Positions 7,966 through 15,308 of a stretch of DNA of 64,000 bases are shown in pieces. Each line of letters starts with the position of its first letter. Within the stretch, counting starts at the first letter, position 1. The notes beneath the pieces are model-generated. The model was not told where the DNA came from, made no database searches, and saw only the letters and a list, made by a program, of their open reading frames with translations. This DNA comes from an uncultured Leptolinea sp. (GTDB lineage Bacteria > Chloroflexota > Anaerolineae > Anaerolineales > Anaerolineaceae): NCBI GenBank assembly GCA_903828565.1, contig CAIKMQ010000029.1, forward strand, positions 1 through 64,000, given 5' to 3'. Position numbers and translations under genes: made by a program.

Positions 7966-9126
7966 TTATGTAAATTGCTTGCGAATCTCGGAACTGAGGA
8001 AATCTAGCACCCACACAACGATGATGATTGCCAGAATGGCTGTGCCCGCAGATGAATAGTTAAAGGTATTGATCTTTTCAGAAAGGAAATACCCAATCCC
8101 GCCACCGCCAACGAAGCCAATGATCGTGGAGATACGGACATTGATGTCCCAGTGGTATATTGCGAAGGATAGAAAATCCGGTACGATCTGGGGAACTACA
8201 GCATACAATACGACCTGCAATGGGGTCGCCCCCGAAGCTTGCAGCGCTTCTATGGGGCCCGGGTCAATGGATTCCACGGATTCTGAGAACATCTTACCAA
8301 GCGAGGCTGCAGTTACTACAGAGAGAGCCAGAACACCGGCGAAGGGATTCCCAAAACCAACGATCAGCGCAAAGATTGAGGCCATCACCAAGGGTTCGTA
8401 AGAGCGGATCATGTTCAGGAAAAATCTGACAGAGTAATATACTGCGGATCCCACCACTCCCTTACGTGTGATATTCGAAGCAGCCAGAAAGCTGAGCGGC
8501 AGCGAGAAAAGTGTGCCTATCGTTGTGGCAAGCAGCGCCATGAAGATGGTCACATACATATTATTAAAGACATCCGTGATCGTCTTGGATGCTGAATAGG
8601 TCGAACCTGGTTGAAAGACTTCAATTTCGAGCCGGGATGGAATGCCGTCAACTGCGACAGTGATCGGTCGAACATCGATCTCTTCACTCAGATTTCCAGA
8701 TGAATCCGTTTTTGCGGTCCGGATCGAAAAGAGTTTTCCGTTGGGTAAGACCCAACGCATATTGACATCTGCATTTTCACCCAGGTCATAGCCATTAAGG
8801 ATTACCAGGTCGCGTGGGTTGGCGCAGCCGGGTACAATTTCCAGCCGGTGGCCTTCATCCGGGATGATCTCCTGGGGAGCGCTATTGCATGGGACTGGCA
8901 CTGCTATGCTAATGGTATAGGAACCGAGGGACTTTTTCTCCAGAATATCCGGTGACAGTAACCCATCAGTGATTTGCCGGCCCTTTTCAAATGAAGAGAT
9001 CAGTTTTCCCATGTCCGGCTGGGTTACCTGAATACTGATGATGACCAGAACAAGGAGAACCAGGCTGATCAGAATTCTACCGGTGAATTTAGGTAATCTC
9101 AATCGGGGATGTTTATTATTGCTCAT
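7966..9126 (-). CDS. phnE: Phosphonate-type ABC transporter permease with extracytoplasmic insert
   Basis: A 386-residue inner-membrane permease of the PhnE family. One N-terminal helix (about 19-40) is followed by an extracytoplasmic region of about 140 residues (about 41-185) with two cysteines (VPCNSAP and PGCANP) and an Ig-like strand pattern. The PhnE core then has about five helices and the cytoplasmic ATPase-contact loop EALQASGATPLQVVLYAVVPQ. Ordinary PhnE proteins are near 260-280 residues, so the insert is additional. It is the last gene of the operon, four bases after the other permease. With PhnC and PhnD it should import an organophosphonate, phosphite or phosphate; the sequence does not show which. 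Confidence 0.88.
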   Translation of the reverse strand: MSNNKHPRLRLPKFTGRILISLVLLVLVIISIQVTQPDMGKLISSFEKGRQITDGLLSPDILEKKSLGSYTISIAVPVPCNSAPQEIIPDEGHRLEIVPGCANPRDLVILNGYDLGENADVNMRWVLPNGKLFSIRTAKTDSSGNLSEEIDVRPITVAVDGIPSRLEIEVFQPGSTYSASKTITDVFNNMYVTIFMALLATTIGTLFSLPLSFLAASNITRKGVVGSAVYYSVRFFLNMIRSYEPLVMASIFALIVGFGNPFAGVLALSVVTAASLGKMFSESVESIDPGPIEALQASGATPLQVVLYAVVPQIVPDFLSFAIYHWDINVRISTIIGFVGGGGIGYFLSEKINTFNYSSAGTAILAIIIVVWVLDFLSSEIRKQFT

Positions 9127-9130
9127 GCTT

Positions 9131-10489
9131 TCACCGAATTTGCTCTCTCAACCTGGCACTGAAGAAGTCCAGCAACATAACAACGATTGCAATGGAAATA
9201 AAACTGGCACTGACAGAGCGGTAATCCTGCAGCAGTATCCACTGGTAAAGATAAAAACCAATACCACCTCCGCCGACGAAACCGATGATGGTGGATGACC
9301 GAACGTTGATATCCCAGCGATAAATGGTCAGCGCCATAAAGGAGGGGATGATCTGCGGGATCACCCCGTATCTCACAACTTGCAACCAATTTGCCCCAGT
9401 AGCACGGATGGCTTCGATTGGGCCGGAATCGATCCCTTCAATAACCTCCGAATACAGTTTTCCGAGGGCTGCGATCGTATGTAAAGTGATCGCGAGCATC
9501 CCGGGAAATGTGCCCAGGCCGACGATCACAACAAAAATGATCGCCATGATCAAGGATTCCACAGAGCGCACAATATTCAGAACTGTACGTGTGAGAACGT
9601 AAATGATCCTCATGATTGGATTGCTGCTCATCAAATTGCGGGCAGCCAAGAAGCTGAAGGGAATTGCCAGAATCGCGCCGATGAGCGTGGCGAGCAGCGC
9701 CACAGACAGTGTTTCATATATCCCCCGAAGAATATGCCCACCGGTTTCAGATATATCTATTCCCCCCAGAGGTTTTGATTGAATGACCACGATCCTGTGC
9801 ATCTGCGGGAGAGTTTGATCCGGTGCGGCGATGTTCACGATCGGCTTCACCTGGAATAATAAAGTTCCGTTGCCGTCCGGGTTTATTTGAAACTCTTCAT
9901 GAATGGATTTTGCCCCAATTGGTGAGTGCCATTCCATGGTTGCAGGATACTCAGGCCAGAAGCCTGTGACATTCAATGTGACATACTCATTGAGGTTGGC
10001 GCAATTCGGGCTGACGCTCATTTTGATGCCATTACCATTCGTTCTTTCGGCCAATGGCGGTGTCGGAGAGCAAGGTACCTGAATATCCACATAACTGGTA
10101 AGAGATTCCGTGCGCGGGCGGGTGAAATCAGGACGCAGCATAGGTTTCAATATGATGCTTGCACGCTCCTGGTTGCGGAAAATCGCAGTCGGGTCCATTT
10201 CTGTTACTTGCCAGCCAATCCCGTAAGCCATCACCAGCCAGAGTAAGATCGGTAAAACCGTAATGGAATTTTTGGGAAATTGGTAGGCATCCAACACGAC
10301 CCACAACCAAATCAGGATCGCGGCGAACCACCATTCTTTGTGCTGGTACCAGAGAACAGTAACAAATGCACTTGCAGTCAGCAGGAAAAGAGCCCCGGCG
10401 CGCTTATATGCCTTTTTGTAAAGCTGCCCCGCCCCGGGAATGATGAGGGAAAGCAAGGCGGCTATGATCGATTTGTTTTTTAACGTCAT
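9131..10489 (-). CDS. phnE: Phosphonate-type ABC transporter permease, three-part fusion
   Basis: A 452-residue permease built of three parts. Residues 1 to about 110 hold four hydrophobic segments beginning with a TM2-like PGAGQLY motif. About 120-240 is an extracytoplasmic domain with cysteines (VPCSPTP, SPNCANLN) resembling that of the partner permease. About 245-452 is the PhnE core with the loop EAIRATGANWLQVVRYGVIPQ. The pairing of two non-identical permeases implies a heterodimeric channel. The N-terminal module is not part of normal PhnE. It lies nine bases after the ATPase gene in the operon PhnD-PhnC-PhnE-PhnE. Substrate unknown; no C-P lyase genes are near. Confidence 0.87.
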   Translation of the reverse strand: MTLKNKSIIAALLSLIIPGAGQLYKKAYKRAGALFLLTASAFVTVLWYQHKEWWFAAILIWLWVVLDAYQFPKNSITVLPILLWLVMAYGIGWQVTEMDPTAIFRNQERASIILKPMLRPDFTRPRTESLTSYVDIQVPCSPTPPLAERTNGNGIKMSVSPNCANLNEYVTLNVTGFWPEYPATMEWHSPIGAKSIHEEFQINPDGNGTLLFQVKPIVNIAAPDQTLPQMHRIVVIQSKPLGGIDISETGGHILRGIYETLSVALLATLIGAILAIPFSFLAARNLMSSNPIMRIIYVLTRTVLNIVRSVESLIMAIIFVVIVGLGTFPGMLAITLHTIAALGKLYSEVIEGIDSGPIEAIRATGANWLQVVRYGVIPQIIPSFMALTIYRWDINVRSSTIIGFVGGGGIGFYLYQWILLQDYRSVSASFISIAIVVMLLDFFSARLREQIR

Positions 10490-10498
10490 GGCCAGCCT

Positions 10499-11266
10499 TT
10501 ATTCGAGGGCAGTCGCCCGAACTTCTTGGGCTTCTTCACCATAAATTGCTTTGAAGCGAGCCCGGTCGATCTCGGAAGGTGCCCCTTCAAAGACTTTCAT
10601 GCCATCTTTCAATCCGATCACATGGGTCCCGTAACGGTGCACCAGGTCTAAAAAGTGCAAACTGCAGATCACAGTGACACGGTCAGTTTTATTCATCTGC
10701 TCAAGATACTGAAGGATGCTGTGCGCCAAAACGGGATCCAGACTGGCAACCGGTTCATCGGCAAGAATGATACGAGGTTCCTGCATGAGAGCCCTTGAGA
10801 TCCCTACTCGCTGTTGTTGACCGCCGGATAGGGCATCTGCCCGGTTTTTTGCTTTGTCAGCGATCCCCACCCTGTTAAGGGCTGCCATGGCCATGTCTTT
10901 ATCAGCTTGCGGCCAGATCCCAAGCAGAGAAAGGAATGGGTTAGCATATCCGAGCCGCCCATTCAGGGTATTGGTTAGTACGGTCGAACGTTTGACAAGA
11001 TTGAATTGTTGGAAGATCATACCGATTTTGCGGCGAATATGCCTGAGCTCCGTAGAATTCGCACTGGTGATCTCCTGGTCATCCAGAAAGATCTTACCTT
11101 CCGTTGGATCGATCAGGCGGTTAATGCAGCGCAACAGGGTGGATTTTCCGGATCCTGAAAGGCCAATCACTACCAAAAATTCACCATCCGGAACCTCGAA
11201 ACTCACATCTTTCAAGGCTACCGTACCATTCGGATACACTTTAGTAAGATGTTCGACGCGTAGCAC
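10499..11266 (-). CDS. phnC: Phosphonate-type ABC transporter ATP-binding protein
   Basis: A 255-residue ABC ATPase of the PhnC type that drives import by the two PhnE-like permeases. Walker A is GLSGSGKST (about 34-42), the Q loop is GMIFQQFNLV, the signature is [12 protein letters not shown] and Walker B is IILADEPVASLD, followed by the H loop ICSLHFLDL. The phrase KRSTVLTNTLNGRLG is typical of PhnC. It is separated from the binding-protein gene by a terminator-like hairpin, which should make it less abundant than the binding protein. Confidence 0.94.
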   Translation of the reverse strand: MLRVEHLTKVYPNGTVALKDVSFEVPDGEFLVVIGLSGSGKSTLLRCINRLIDPTEGKIFLDDQEITSANSTELRHIRRKIGMIFQQFNLVKRSTVLTNTLNGRLGYANPFLSLLGIWPQADKDMAMAALNRVGIADKAKNRADALSGGQQQRVGISRALMQEPRIILADEPVASLDPVLAHSILQYLEQMNKTDRVTVICSLHFLDLVHRYGTHVIGLKDGMKVFEGAPSEIDRARFKAIYGEEAQEVRATALE

Positions 11267-11341: not shown

Positions 11342-12361
11342 TTACTTCACGAGGGTCGTGATATCCAGGCCAGAAGCCTGCAGATTCACGCGGAATTCAT
11401 CGTAGAATGTATCATCAACCACTTTCAATCCCTGGACCTGGTAACCAATATCCTTCAACAGGGTTTGGCCTTCTTCGGTGCTCGAGAGCTCTACCAGAGC
11501 AGCGGTCAGATTTGCAACAACATCTTCCGGCAGACCCGCGGCAAAGGACACATTGTCATTCGGGATAAAGGGATCTGAGACCCAGATAACAGAAACTTTT
11601 TCAAGAACATCGGGGACTTCAGCAAACTTCTTGTCTGTACGGGCATCAATGTAGGTGGCGCCGAAATCGCAGATGCCACCAGCGTACAATGCCTGAATTA
11701 CAGTGGGGTGGCCAATAACGAAGGCTGCAGCCTTGGTCTTAATGCCATTACTGGCGATTAGACCGGAAGGAATGACATAACCGGAAGCTGAAAGGGGATC
11801 TGTCCAGCAGGGTTTCTTGCCTTCGAACTGGGCGAGAGCGGTTGCGGCATCTGCAGTTACTGTATTAGTGGCTGAGTCGAAATAGGAGGTGAATCCGCTC
11901 GCTGCGCCAGCAACAAATTGCACACCGTAGTGATCTGCACCATTGCGCAGGACAACCAGACCGACATTCGCGTAATCTTTTTCCTTAGCCAGCATGTAAG
12001 CTAAAGGTGGGAGCCAGCCAATGTGAGCATTGCCAGAACCCATAGCTTCTACCAGAGCGGCATAGCTGTTGGGGATGGTCAATTCAATGGTGTATCCCGT
12101 CATTTCTTGCAACTTGGCGGCCAGAGCACCACCACCGGTGGTCAGCTGTTCAGCGGTTGCAGAGGGAGCCATTGCCATGATGATCGGATTCTCAGGAGAT
12201 CCGAGCGGAATGGCTGTCGGTTCCGGAACATCGGTTGCAGGAACAGCAACTGGTTCAACCGGAGCTGGTTCTTCGACAACTGGTGCAGCGGGCTGGCAGG
12301 CAGCCAGAAGCATGCTGAGGACTAGAATGCCGGCAAAAACGAAATACAACTTTGATCTCAT
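11342..12361 (-). CDS. phnD: Phosphate/phosphonate-type ABC transporter substrate-binding lipoprotein
   Basis: A 339-residue lipoprotein with a signal peptide ending in the lipobox MLLAAC, a Pro/Val-rich linker, and a PhnD-like periplasmic-binding domain (PF12974 type). Landmarks are MAMAPSATAEQLTTGGGALA, GNAHIGWLPPLAYMLA and the DPLSASGYVIPSGLIASNGI segment that closes over the ligand. It captures the substrate and delivers it to the two permeases. The start at 12361 (or 12364) follows an AAGGAGG box. A near-consensus promoter precedes it, with no PHO box, so it is apparently not controlled like the pst operon further along. Confidence 0.92.
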   Translation of the reverse strand: MRSKLYFVFAGILVLSMLLAACQPAAPVVEEPAPVEPVAVPATDVPEPTAIPLGSPENPIIMAMAPSATAEQLTTGGGALAAKLQEMTGYTIELTIPNSYAALVEAMGSGNAHIGWLPPLAYMLAKEKDYANVGLVVLRNGADHYGVQFVAGAASGFTSYFDSATNTVTADAATALAQFEGKKPCWTDPLSASGYVIPSGLIASNGIKTKAAAFVIGHPTVIQALYAGGICDFGATYIDARTDKKFAEVPDVLEKVSVIWVSDPFIPNDNVSFAAGLPEDVVANLTAALVELSSTEEGQTLLKDIGYQVQGLKVVDDTFYDEFRVNLQASGLDITTLVK

Positions 12362-12417
12362 CATAACCTCCTTGGGGTTAAGTGAAAGTTTATTCCCCAC
12401 GCAGGGAACACGTAATT

Positions 12418-12446
12418 ATTGTACAGATTCACCTACAACCGGTCAA
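12418..12446 (-). promoter_or_regulatory. Promoter of the phosphonate-type transporter operon
   Basis: On the minus strand TTGACC (12446-12441) and TACAAT (12423-12418) are separated by exactly 17 bp, followed by a 56-nt leader and AAGGAGG. No riboswitch-like structure is apparent in the leader. Confidence 0.75.
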
Positions 12447-12504
12447 GTATAAAACTCATAATTCCGCAGATTTTTTCCTGTTTCTGACATAAAATCCAGG
12501 GATT

Positions 12505-12580
12505 AGTTAGAAAGTTTTGACAATCCTGCAGTTAGAAAGTTTTGACAATTACACAGGAGTCATCTCATAACTGATATACT
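12505..12580 (+). promoter_or_regulatory. Tandem 20-bp repeats and extended -10 upstream of the Cys/His-rich gene
   Basis: AGTTAGAAAGTTTTGACAAT occurs at 12505-12524 and again at 12530-12549, a 25-bp period that places the copies on nearly the same face of the helix. Each copy contains TTGACA. TGATATACT at 12572-12580 looks like an extended -10 box. The repeats are probably binding sites for a regulator of the downstream metal-binding-type gene. Confidence 0.6.
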
Positions 12581-12598
12581 AATATCTGGAGGAACAAA

Positions 12599-12895
12599 AT
12601 GTCAAAGAAAGACAAGAAAAAACACGAAGGCGAGCAGGTACTGGAAGAAGGTTGCTGCTGCGGAAGCCAGGATGAATGCGGCTGTGGTGGACACGGTCAT
12701 GAGGGATCTCACCATGGGGATTGTTGTGGTGGACACGATCATGGCGGATGCGGTTGCGAAGAAGAAGTAACCTTCGAGCGTCAATTCTACACCCGGGATG
12801 AAAAGATCCAAATGCTGGAGGAGTATCTTGCCGATCTGAAAGCAGAACAACAGGGAGTAGAAGAAGCTCTGGCATTGTTACGCAAAGAAGCTTAG
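12599..12895 (+). CDS. Small Cys/His-rich putative metal-binding protein
   Basis: A 98-residue protein with a lysine-rich N-terminus, a central region (about 18-57) with nine cysteines and several GHxH pairs, and a C-terminal amphipathic helix of about 35 residues beginning TRDEKIQMLEEYLADLKAEQ. The C-terminal part resembles helical segments of DUF5320-type small proteins. The central region could bind several Zn, Ni, Co or Cu ions. A GGAGG box precedes the ATG. Tandem repeats in the promoter suggest specific regulation. No enzyme activity is implied. Its stop codon overlaps the stop codon of the convergent phosphoesterase gene. Confidence 0.8.
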   Translation: MSKKDKKKHEGEQVLEEGCCCGSQDECGCGGHGHEGSHHGDCCGGHDHGGCGCEEEVTFERQFYTRDEKIQMLEEYLADLKAEQQGVEEALALLRKEA

Positions 12896-13479
12896 TCGTA
12901 AATCTGAACGATCTCACCGTACAAACGATCCACACTCTCCAGGTGCAAGATGCCGAAGGATGGGTGTGGATCGTGCTTTGAAGGGGTACACGCCGCGCCA
13001 GGATTGAAATATAGAATTCCCTGGTGAAACTGGTTATATGCCACATGAGTATGACCGAACAACCGGATATTTGCTTTTGGGAAGAGGGAATCTAGTAGAG
13101 TACGGTACCTTTTGAACTCGAAACCATGCGCGTAGTATTGGGCTTTATCCCAAAGATAGTGCAGCATTGGGCCATGACCGTGGGTAGCGCCAATTTCCAA
13201 ACCCCCATTCTTAATAAGCAAAGCTTCAGGTAATTCTCTGGCATTCTGCAGATCACGATTTCCGCGAACTGCAAAGGTGGGGGCAATAGTTGTAAGCTGG
13301 GCCAGGACATCTGGTGAATTTATATCTCCCAGGTGGAAGATACAGGCAACCTGATTTTGACGAAAAACCTCACTGATGGATGCGGGTAGTTTGACGCCGC
13401 CACCCGGTAGGTGAGTATCCGAAAGAACACCGATACGAGCCGGTAAAAGGATATTCAGGTATTTCTGAGAAATTCTCAT
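12892..13479 (-). CDS. YfcE/MJ0936-type metallophosphoesterase
   Basis: A 195-residue calcineurin-like phosphoesterase. All metal-binding motifs are present in order: GVLSDTHL, HLGDINSP, VRGNRD, THGHG and LFGHTHVA. Family members hydrolyse phosphodiesters or small phosphate esters with Mn; the substrate is unknown. The ATG at 13479 is chosen because the protein then begins close to the first motif and a TGTTATACT extended -10 box ends six bases upstream, suggesting a leaderless message. An in-frame ATG at 13548 would start before that promoter. It is convergent with, and shares 4 nt with, the Cys/His-rich gene. Confidence 0.9.
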   Translation of the reverse strand: MRISQKYLNILLPARIGVLSDTHLPGGGVKLPASISEVFRQNQVACIFHLGDINSPDVLAQLTTIAPTFAVRGNRDLQNARELPEALLIKNGGLEIGATHGHGPMLHYLWDKAQYYAHGFEFKRYRTLLDSLFPKANIRLFGHTHVAYNQFHQGILYFNPGAACTPSKHDPHPSFGILHLESVDRLYGEIVQIYD

Positions 13480-13547
13480 CCTCTGAGTATAACAAATCCC
13501 TGATATGATTATTAAACAAACAGTTGATTTATAAGACAGGTAATCCA

Positions 13548-15308
13548 ATGCGTAACTTTACTAGTTTATTTTTCCTGTTCTTATTTGCCGGTTGTTCCAG
13601 CCAGACATTGATCCATGGAACTGTGCAGCCCGCAGCATCCAGCACGCCAGACAAGATCCCATCCGCCACCCCATTTCCAACTCCTGATATTCCCCTTGAT
13701 ATCAGAATTCAAATTGACAATCTATCCGTGCCAGCCATGACACAGGTCCATTTTTCTACCATCGTTACTGGTGGTGTTCCACCTTTTGTTTATACCTGGG
13801 ATTTTCAAAGCGAACCACCCTACCTGGGAGTAAAACATCTGCCCGACCCTTATTTCGTTTACGCAACACCTGGAGATTATCAGGTAGTTGTACGGGTGAC
13901 AGATGCTTTTGGCCGGAAGGCAGAAGCATCCGAGACTTTGAAAGTTACCCCCATTAGTTATCAGGTGGCAAAACCCATCCGGTATATCAATGTCCATGGA
14001 ACCGCCGACCAACCGGTGATTATTGAAGGTTTCGATATCTCAGGTGAGAATACCAATGGGATAGCGTTGGTCAATTGCTCTTATGTCGTGATCCGAAATA
14101 ACCATGTCCATAACATGACTGATAACGATATGGAAAGGAGTATTTCAGGCAATGCGATCTATGTCCAAAATTCTGATCACATCTCGATCTTGAATAATTA
14201 TGTGCACGACAACACCCGCGGGATCAATGTCAACTCAACGCCTGATGCTGACCTTTTTGAAGGTGTCGTTATCCAGGGGAATGTAGTTATAAATAACCAG
14301 CTGGACAATGCGATCCTGGTTCGGGGAGGCCGATTGATCGAAGTGGGGGGTAATCTATCTATTAACAATGGAGACCCAGAATACTTTGAAAAACACCGAC
14401 TTCAGGGTGTGGTCGTTTGGGATGCGCAGGATGTGAACATCCATGACAACTATGCATACGGTTCCACCAGTGATGGGATCGCTCTGGCGACATCCCGTGA
14501 GATGCAGGCTGAGAAGAACGATTTTTATTGCAGCAATTACACGATCACGCGCAATGTGTCTGTAAAGAATGGAGAACAGGGTATCTGGCTTTCGGGAACC
14601 AGTGATGGTTTGGTAAGTAACAATATTATCGATCAGATCACAAAAGGGGATGGCATCATGGTGGAAGGTGATAATCACCAGGTTACTATTGCAGATAACA
14701 GTATCGTTGATTCTGGTGTATCAGGAATCTGGTTGGAATCATCTTGGGATATTACTATCGCGCGAAATCGAATTTCCTCGACTCTCGCAGATGCATCCGG
14801 TATTTGGGTGGGGTACATCCCTCACGATTACTACCGGTACCATGTCAATGAAAATATCCTGATCAATCATAATGTGATCACTGATAACCGGATGGGCATC
14901 GAATTGCATGCAGCCAATCAGGTGATTGTTGCGAATAATACTGTGGCGAGGAATGGCCAAGTCAGCGACAACCCTGCCGGTATCCTTGTGATGGCTGAAA
15001 TGAAAAACACAGTGGTCGCAAATAATGTCTCTGTATGGAATGACGGCTGGGGTATTGTCAATGATTCCAATACTACATTTATTACGAGCAATATCTCTTA
15101 TGCAAACACAGGTGCGATCCGGACGGTAGTGCCTGATGAAGGAACCATCACCGCTGACCCCGTGTTCATCAGTAGGATGACGGATTACTTCATGCCGATC
15201 TCCGGTTCTCCCTGCATCAATGGGGGAAATAAGAATTTTGATTTTCGAACCGAACCGCATCCGGTGGACGACCCTGTGGATATTGGGGCTTATGAGTACC
15301 ACAACTGA
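13548..15308 (+). CDS. Lipoprotein with PKD domain and right-handed beta-helix
   Basis: A 586-residue secreted lipoprotein. The signal peptide ends with lipobox LFAGC, then a Pro/Thr-rich linker, then a PKD-like Ig domain (about 50-135; VTGGVPPFVYTWDF, ATPGDYQVVVRVTD). From about 150 to 570 runs a parallel beta-helix of the NosD/PbH1 type with repeated turns such as GIALVNCSYVVIRNNHVHNM and GIWLSGTSDGLVSNNII. The last turns end in IGAYEY. Such proteins bind or cleave polysaccharides, but no catalytic site can be assigned with confidence. The gene is monocistronic and diverges from the phosphoesterase gene. Confidence 0.87.
   Translation: MRNFTSLFFLFLFAGCSSQTLIHGTVQPAASSTPDKIPSATPFPTPDIPLDIRIQIDNLSVPAMTQVHFSTIVTGGVPPFVYTWDFQSEPPYLGVKHLPDPYFVYATPGDYQVVVRVTDAFGRKAEASETLKVTPISYQVAKPIRYINVHGTADQPVIIEGFDISGENTNGIALVNCSYVVIRNNHVHNMTDNDMERSISGNAIYVQNSDHISILNNYVHDNTRGINVNSTPDADLFEGVVIQGNVVINNQLDNAILVRGGRLIEVGGNLSINNGDPEYFEKHRLQGVVVWDAQDVNIHDNYAYGSTSDGIALATSREMQAEKNDFYCSNYTITRNVSVKNGEQGIWLSGTSDGLVSNNIIDQITKGDGIMVEGDNHQVTIADNSIVDSGVSGIWLESSWDITIARNRISSTLADASGIWVGYIPHDYYRYHVNENILINHNVITDNRMGIELHAANQVIVANNTVARNGQVSDNPAGILVMAEMKNTVVANNVSVWNDGWGIVNDSNTTFITSNISYANTGAIRTVVPDEGTITADPVFISRMTDYFMPISGSPCINGGNKNFDFRTEPHPVDDPVDIGAYEYHN

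Follow-up and report, generated by a model that had tools for sequence, protein, structure and literature searches.

The bacterial metallothioneins SmtA, BmtA and PmtA have ArsR-type regulators beside them, and E. coli NfeR (YqjI) is a PadR-type repressor with a nickel/iron role. The Cys/His-tailed mini-protein described here can be compared with both. Like the metallothioneins, it is small and Cys-rich, and ArsR-type regulators adjoin some of its homologues, but no metallothionein model matches it and a third of it is predicted helix. The translated Cys/His N-terminal tail of NfeR resembles the tails of PadR proteins encoded upstream of members of the mini-protein's family; NfeR, however, holds tail and DNA-binding domain in one protein, whereas the family adds a second tail on a separate helical protein. 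SlyD, HspA and Hpn, i.e., proteins with His/Cys-rich tails or small His-rich proteins, bind nickel according to excerpts of PMC7840056. The mini-protein differs from these in having neither an FKBP nor a GroES domain: Pfam gives no match to a SlyD-type FKBP domain, and the structure model shows one helix only. DUF5320 (PF17253), itself of unknown function, shares a low-complexity N-terminal part, and the C-terminal stretch of the family's members aligns to the end of its model (position 99), but the tail of the mini-protein is Cys/His-rich.

No description of the family, or of a module of regulator and mini-protein, was found in the literature searched, including excerpts of PMC6460284 and PMC7840056. 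This Cys/His-tailed Chloroflexota family is also not covered as such by the Pfam and NCBIfam libraries searched. The significance of the locus rests on the family rather than on the repeat in front of the gene, which alone matters little.

The gene is found at 12599..12895 (+) of the window, i.e., the whole analysed stretch of 64,000 nucleotides, and encodes 98 aa with 9 Cys and 7 His. The sequence-only reading had placed two identical 20-mers with a 25-bp period ahead of an extended -10 and this 98-residue frame, and the sequence bears this out. The frame is flanked by a divergent operon of a phosphate/phosphite/phosphonate ABC transporter, comprising the substrate-binding protein (11342..12364, -; TIGR01098 over cut-off, PhnD equivalog below cut-off; start ATG chosen via the conserved RBS), a PhnC-type ATPase (10499..11266, -; TIGR02315 over cut-off) and two PhnE-type permeases (9131..10489 and 7966..9126, both -; TIGR01097 over cut-off). 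On the other side, a convergent gene for a YfcE-family phosphodiesterase (12892..13548, -; TIGR00040 over cut-off) overlaps the mini-protein stop by 4 bp.

The relatives search returned only one genome of the same genus (G298), whose entries L033 and L075 are one locus. It encodes an orthologue that is 71% identical to the mini-protein. Of the 40 codons of the C-terminal block, 15 are the same in both genes, 20 differ by synonymous and 5 by nonsynonymous changes. A similar ABC operon and a similar phosphodiesterase gene surround the orthologue in the order seen in the window (neighbours read by eye). Given this identity, the predominance of synonymous differences and the shared neighbours, the frame is, by comparison of the two genomes, a real gene.

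AlphaFold2 models of both orthologues show a low-confidence tail and a single confident helix (mean pLDDT 63.9). The tail, residues 19-53 (12653..12757, +), holds all nine Cys and is read as disordered, with pLDDT mostly <50. Residues 66-97 (12794..12889, +) are predicted to form an amphipathic helix with block-mean pLDDT of 88-98, hydrophobic heptad positions and invariant alignment columns, i.e., the core of the family. No Pfam family matches the mini-protein at E up to 1, nor does any NCBIfam model; as far as Pfam goes, the earlier statement that it is not a known metallothionein therefore holds. A search of the PDB reached only designed coiled coils and chains without relation to the protein (best E 0.0039), and these were set aside.

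Sequence comparison places the mini-protein in an unnamed Chloroflexota family with a variable Cys/His tail and a conserved C-terminal helix. A single-sequence search gave matches in 30 of 298 genomes of the class, 25 of which are members once the translations are read; the matches L024, L027, L028, L031 and L032 are non-members on reading. The search also matched a Campylobacteraceae protein (L034:5479-6075), which is FKBP-type by eye and has a Cys/His tail. Since this match covers query residues 19-46 only, we take the likeness as convergent and do not count the protein as a member. A profile search recovered the family in 12 of 61 relatives, a count that includes the own genome and the weak match G302. 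Among 400 phylum genomes it recovered the family in at least 20, as no more than 14 candidates were scored in each. Three genomes of the phylum survey are common to other sets, i.e., the class, relatives and phylum sets overlap. The window protein is found at 1.1e-18 by profile A2 and at 2.2e-23 by the local profile, being itself a row of both; the 25 members reached from it by the single-sequence search support its place in the family independently of these profiles.

The C-terminal segment follows the majority pattern F-x-R-R-F-x-T-R-x-E-x-I-x-x-L-E-x-Y-L-x-x-L-x-x-E-x-x-x-V-E-E. The number of Cys per protein, on the other hand, ranges from 0 to 30 among 25 members, with L018 (0 Cys, 3 His) and L016 (2 Cys, 2 His) at the poor end. 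With Cys scarce or absent in some members, the conservation of the family does not lie in the tail. Seven of 16 members match DUF5320 at E up to 1, and one of them (L014) passes its cut-off with 28.3 vs 27 bits; the family thus borders on DUF5320, although the window protein itself gives no match to it at E up to 1. For the same 16 members, NCBIfam yields nothing better than E 0.01, and one reaches the metallothionein profile Metallothio_2 (E 0.012).

These observations bear on the reading that the helix is the working part, i.e., that the protein is a small DUF5320-like adaptor or scaffold with a low-complexity tail under little constraint. The confinement of conservation to the C-terminal segment, the wide range of Cys counts, the existence of Cys-less relatives in the phylum (L085, L086, L089-L091, L093-L095) and the one member over the DUF5320 cut-off speak for it. 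However, the Cys count is high in both the window protein and its orthologue (9 vs 8) despite the divergence of their tails, and CC, CxC and HH pairs recur across the family (by eye). We regard this reading as unlikely.

The Cys-less phylum relatives share the helix and have aromatic tails, no PadR or ArsR gene was found upstream of them, and one (L085) matches DUF5320 below cut-off. Another observation concerns the family member L022:379-642, which has an in-frame TAG within its tail.

To describe the genomic context, we counted a regulator gene if it is upstream on the same strand, with no more than 1 kb between its stop and the family stop. PadR and ArsR genes were detected by local profiles seeded with ten Pfam-confirmed neighbours. 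In this count, L020 was dropped as a duplicate of L049, and the weak matches L066 and L067 as well as a second G006 match were left out. Of 53 loci from 50 genomes, 28 have a regulator gene ahead of the family gene, i.e., 17 PadR (L037 being a C-terminal fragment) and 11 ArsR, where 8 of the 28 regulators are themselves seeds. Since the own genome holds in total only 2 PadR genes over cut-off (3 at E up to 0.001) and 6 ArsR genes, this pairing is far above the rate for random neighbours, in a comparison with genome totals made without a random-gene control.

Where both genes are present, they are tightly coupled. We measured the distance from family start to regulator stop in 23 loci with start codons chosen by hand, leaving out L078 with its guessed start. 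It ranges from -17 to +12 nt in 12 PadR loci and from -17 to +150 nt in 10 of 11 ArsR loci, and the two genes overlap in 7 of 22 loci. Sixteen PadR partners are complete; their short N-terminal tail contains two to four Cys in 12 cases and His only in the other four (L047, L078, L087, L088). Across the 16 pairs, the Cys count of the PadR tail rises with that of the family protein (rho 0.73, p 0.0013; kinship uncorrected, starts by eye). The Cys/His-tailed PadR proteins of Chloroflexota are candidate metal sensors. A CC or CRC motif shortly before the first helix was seen in the PadR proteins of L025, L036, L038, L042-L046, L048, L049, L053 and L068.

In 25 of the 53 loci no regulator is found upstream, the window and the orthologue (L075) among them; L081 is cut at a contig start and cannot show one. 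Within the window's taxonomic family, an upstream regulator is present in 2 of 11 loci (L068, L069), L072 has an ArsR gene downstream, and the other eight, window and L075 included, have none upstream. A PadR gene is located on the same contig outside the window, 53 kb away.

Metal-related genes occur within about 4 kb of eight members, i.e., VIT1, cation efflux, a CsoR-type repressor with a P-type ATPase with HMA, ArsP, FdhD, MOT1, MoCF_biosynth and HMA. They were picked by eye from 28 loci without a control set, and 20 of the 28 gave none.

The analysis shows a conserved family of two-part architecture, about half of whose genes directly follow a PadR/ArsR gene; metal binding, location in the cell and role are inferred. 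We see about an even chance that the mini-protein is a small metal buffer or delivery protein, whose Cys/His tail binds metal and whose C-terminal helix self-associates or docks. The flexible tail would bind a soft or borderline transition metal or a metalloid; the helix would self-associate as a coiled coil or dock the protein on a partner. Such a protein would presumably be located and act in the cytoplasm. In the genus of the window, the gene stands alone behind its own extended -10 promoter. Metal binding as such is probable. For a buffer or delivery role speak the orthologue with the same synteny and mostly synonymous changes, the recurrence of the family among relatives and in class and phylum genomes, the regulators upstream in 28 of 53 loci with their short distances to the family gene, the parallel Cys counts, the metal genes near eight members and the contrast between confident helix 66-97 and low-confidence tail. 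Against it stand the members with few or no Cys, the 25 of 53 loci without upstream regulator, the low share of such regulators in the window's taxonomic family (2 of 11 loci), the 20 of 28 loci where no metal gene was picked out, and the window's own neighbours, since a phosphonate-type ABC transporter and a phosphodiesterase do not point to metal. The tie of the family to PadR/ArsR regulators makes a metal-handling function testable.

The same gene pairs could also be read as a regulatory partnership, in which the mini-protein is a sensory or anti-repressor partner that is bound to PadR or ArsR via its helix and hands over or removes the metal; for the genus of the window, the regulator would then be encoded elsewhere. 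The tight gene coupling and the parallel Cys content of both tails fit this co-regulator role, and the partner may be PadR or ArsR while the small protein stays. Yet a family protein that changes between unrelated regulators is less likely to make a specific contact with them, and the one PadR locus of the own genome that was read shows no Cys/His tail from its first ATG. We consider the role improbable.

More speculative than established is also a two-gene metal-sensing module, in which a repressor, i.e., PadR with its own Cys/His tail, or ArsR, and the mini-protein with a second tail on a coiled-coil helix would be produced jointly and would share or compete for one metal. The window would then represent a derived form that has parted from its regulator and acquired a new tandem operator. 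We hold this to be rather doubtful.

Finally, the cysteines might serve a thiol/redox or structural zinc role rather than storage, i.e., disulfides or a small zinc knot would switch the coiled coil. The CC and CxC pairs and the likely anaerobic lineage (inferred from the relative's Anaerolinea name) are in line with such a switch. No fixed spacing of the Cys pairs was seen across the family alignment, which counts against it, and we deem it highly improbable.

We now turn to the region in front of the gene. Both copies of the repeat (12505..12524 and 12530..12549, +) read AGTTAGAAAGTTTTGACAAT and are identical with a 25-bp period, while their 5-bp flanks agree at 0/5 positions on the left and 1/5 on the right. 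The genome search for more 20-mers that had been proposed along with the first description found the repeat to be unique: no further copy with up to 3 mismatches exists in the 64-kb window (maximum in 100 shuffles 0) or in the own 2.22 Mb genome, and the latter yielded no further 16-bp core either when up to 2 mismatches were allowed. Searching 8 genomes for 20-mer and core gave two single 3-mismatch matches (G202, G310), while a control with the reversed pattern gave four. The pair exceeds chance expectation. Among exact direct repeats of at least 16 nt within 120 nt, the window holds only this pair and one at its edge; a further 265,057 bases of the own genome (20 stretches) show only contig-start arrays and one 24-nt tandem array.

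The gene itself is preceded by the extended -10 TGATATACTAATAT (12572..12585, +), which is identical in front of the orthologue, and by the ribosome-binding site GGAGGA (12588..12593, +; read from the sequence), which is kept there as well. A sigma-70 consensus scan of 12300-13000 gave 2 sites vs 1.1 expected, both on the - strand, and no pair on the strand of the mini-protein gene. One of them, TTGACC-17-TACAAT (12418..12446, -), is a candidate promoter of the divergent ABC operon, and the stretch ATTGTACAGA over its -10 is identical in the relative. The second candidate, TTGACA-18-TAGTAT (12576..12605, -; 10/12 consensus positions), is directed through the repeat and may be a chance occurrence. 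We rejected the TTGACA of copy 2 as -35 for TATACT, given that the spacer of 27 bp is too long. No known RNA element matches within 12300-13000 at E up to 1.

The intergenic region measures 234 bp in the window vs 235 bp in the relative. Its ends are kept in L033, i.e., TGATATACTAATAT, both ribosome-binding sites (that of the ABC operon included) and the stretch over the ABC candidate -10, while the middle, where the window has the repeat, has diverged. The repeat was not found in the intergenic region of L033, and no 20-mer copy with up to 3 mismatches is present in G298 (genome 85% complete). A shifted or weaker 20-mer in the relative was dismissed (best match 13/20, reached by 78/300 shuffles), as was a weaker internal repeat (best one equalled in 84/100 shuffles).

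The first interpretation had been a metal store or chaperone regulated via the repeat. Its metal-handling half is plausible, given the Cys/His tail, the PadR/ArsR genes before about half of the homologous loci and the metal genes near several of them. Control of the mini-protein gene by the repeat is unsupported, since the relative lacks the repeat but agrees with the window in gene order, -10 and RBS. Even a functional repeat need not act on the mini-protein gene, as the region is shared with the divergent operon and both promoter-like sites are on the other strand; located between two divergent genes, it could equally serve phnD, or nothing. The pair is best taken as a feature of the species, which may be a tandem operator of recent origin or else a neutral duplication.

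As an operator, it would consist of two 20-bp sites in tandem with a 25-bp period, bound by a regulator that activates or represses either the mini-protein gene or the divergent phn-type operon. The copies are perfect with dissimilar 5-bp flanks and would have their centres near -47 and -72 relative to the presumed start, ahead of a promoter without -35. However, the repeat is missing in the same-genus relative, the own genome has no other copy of 20-mer or core, and 25 bp does not correspond to an integral number of turns of the helix. The Pho box is an 11-bp unit, which the 25-bp period does not fit. We keep this as a tentative possibility.

A recent local duplication without function is a reasonable reading, if somewhat short of an even chance. 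It agrees with the absence from the relative, the uniqueness in the genome and the diverged middle between retained ends. Yet the identity ends sharply at 20 bp on both sides, which plain 25-bp slippage would produce only if a number of changes followed rapidly. The own genome has few repeats of this kind, and the intergenic region is no longer than that of the relative, unlike after a fresh insertion.

The edge repeat of the window is a 19-bp exact repeat, 79 bp apart, within positions 1-98, where window start and contig start coincide. Other contig starts of the own genome also bear repeats, and these starts may be assembly breaks. At one of them (L105:35-372, start of contig C1 of G000), a CRISPR-like array with five 37-nt repeat copies and 37-40-nt spacers was observed.
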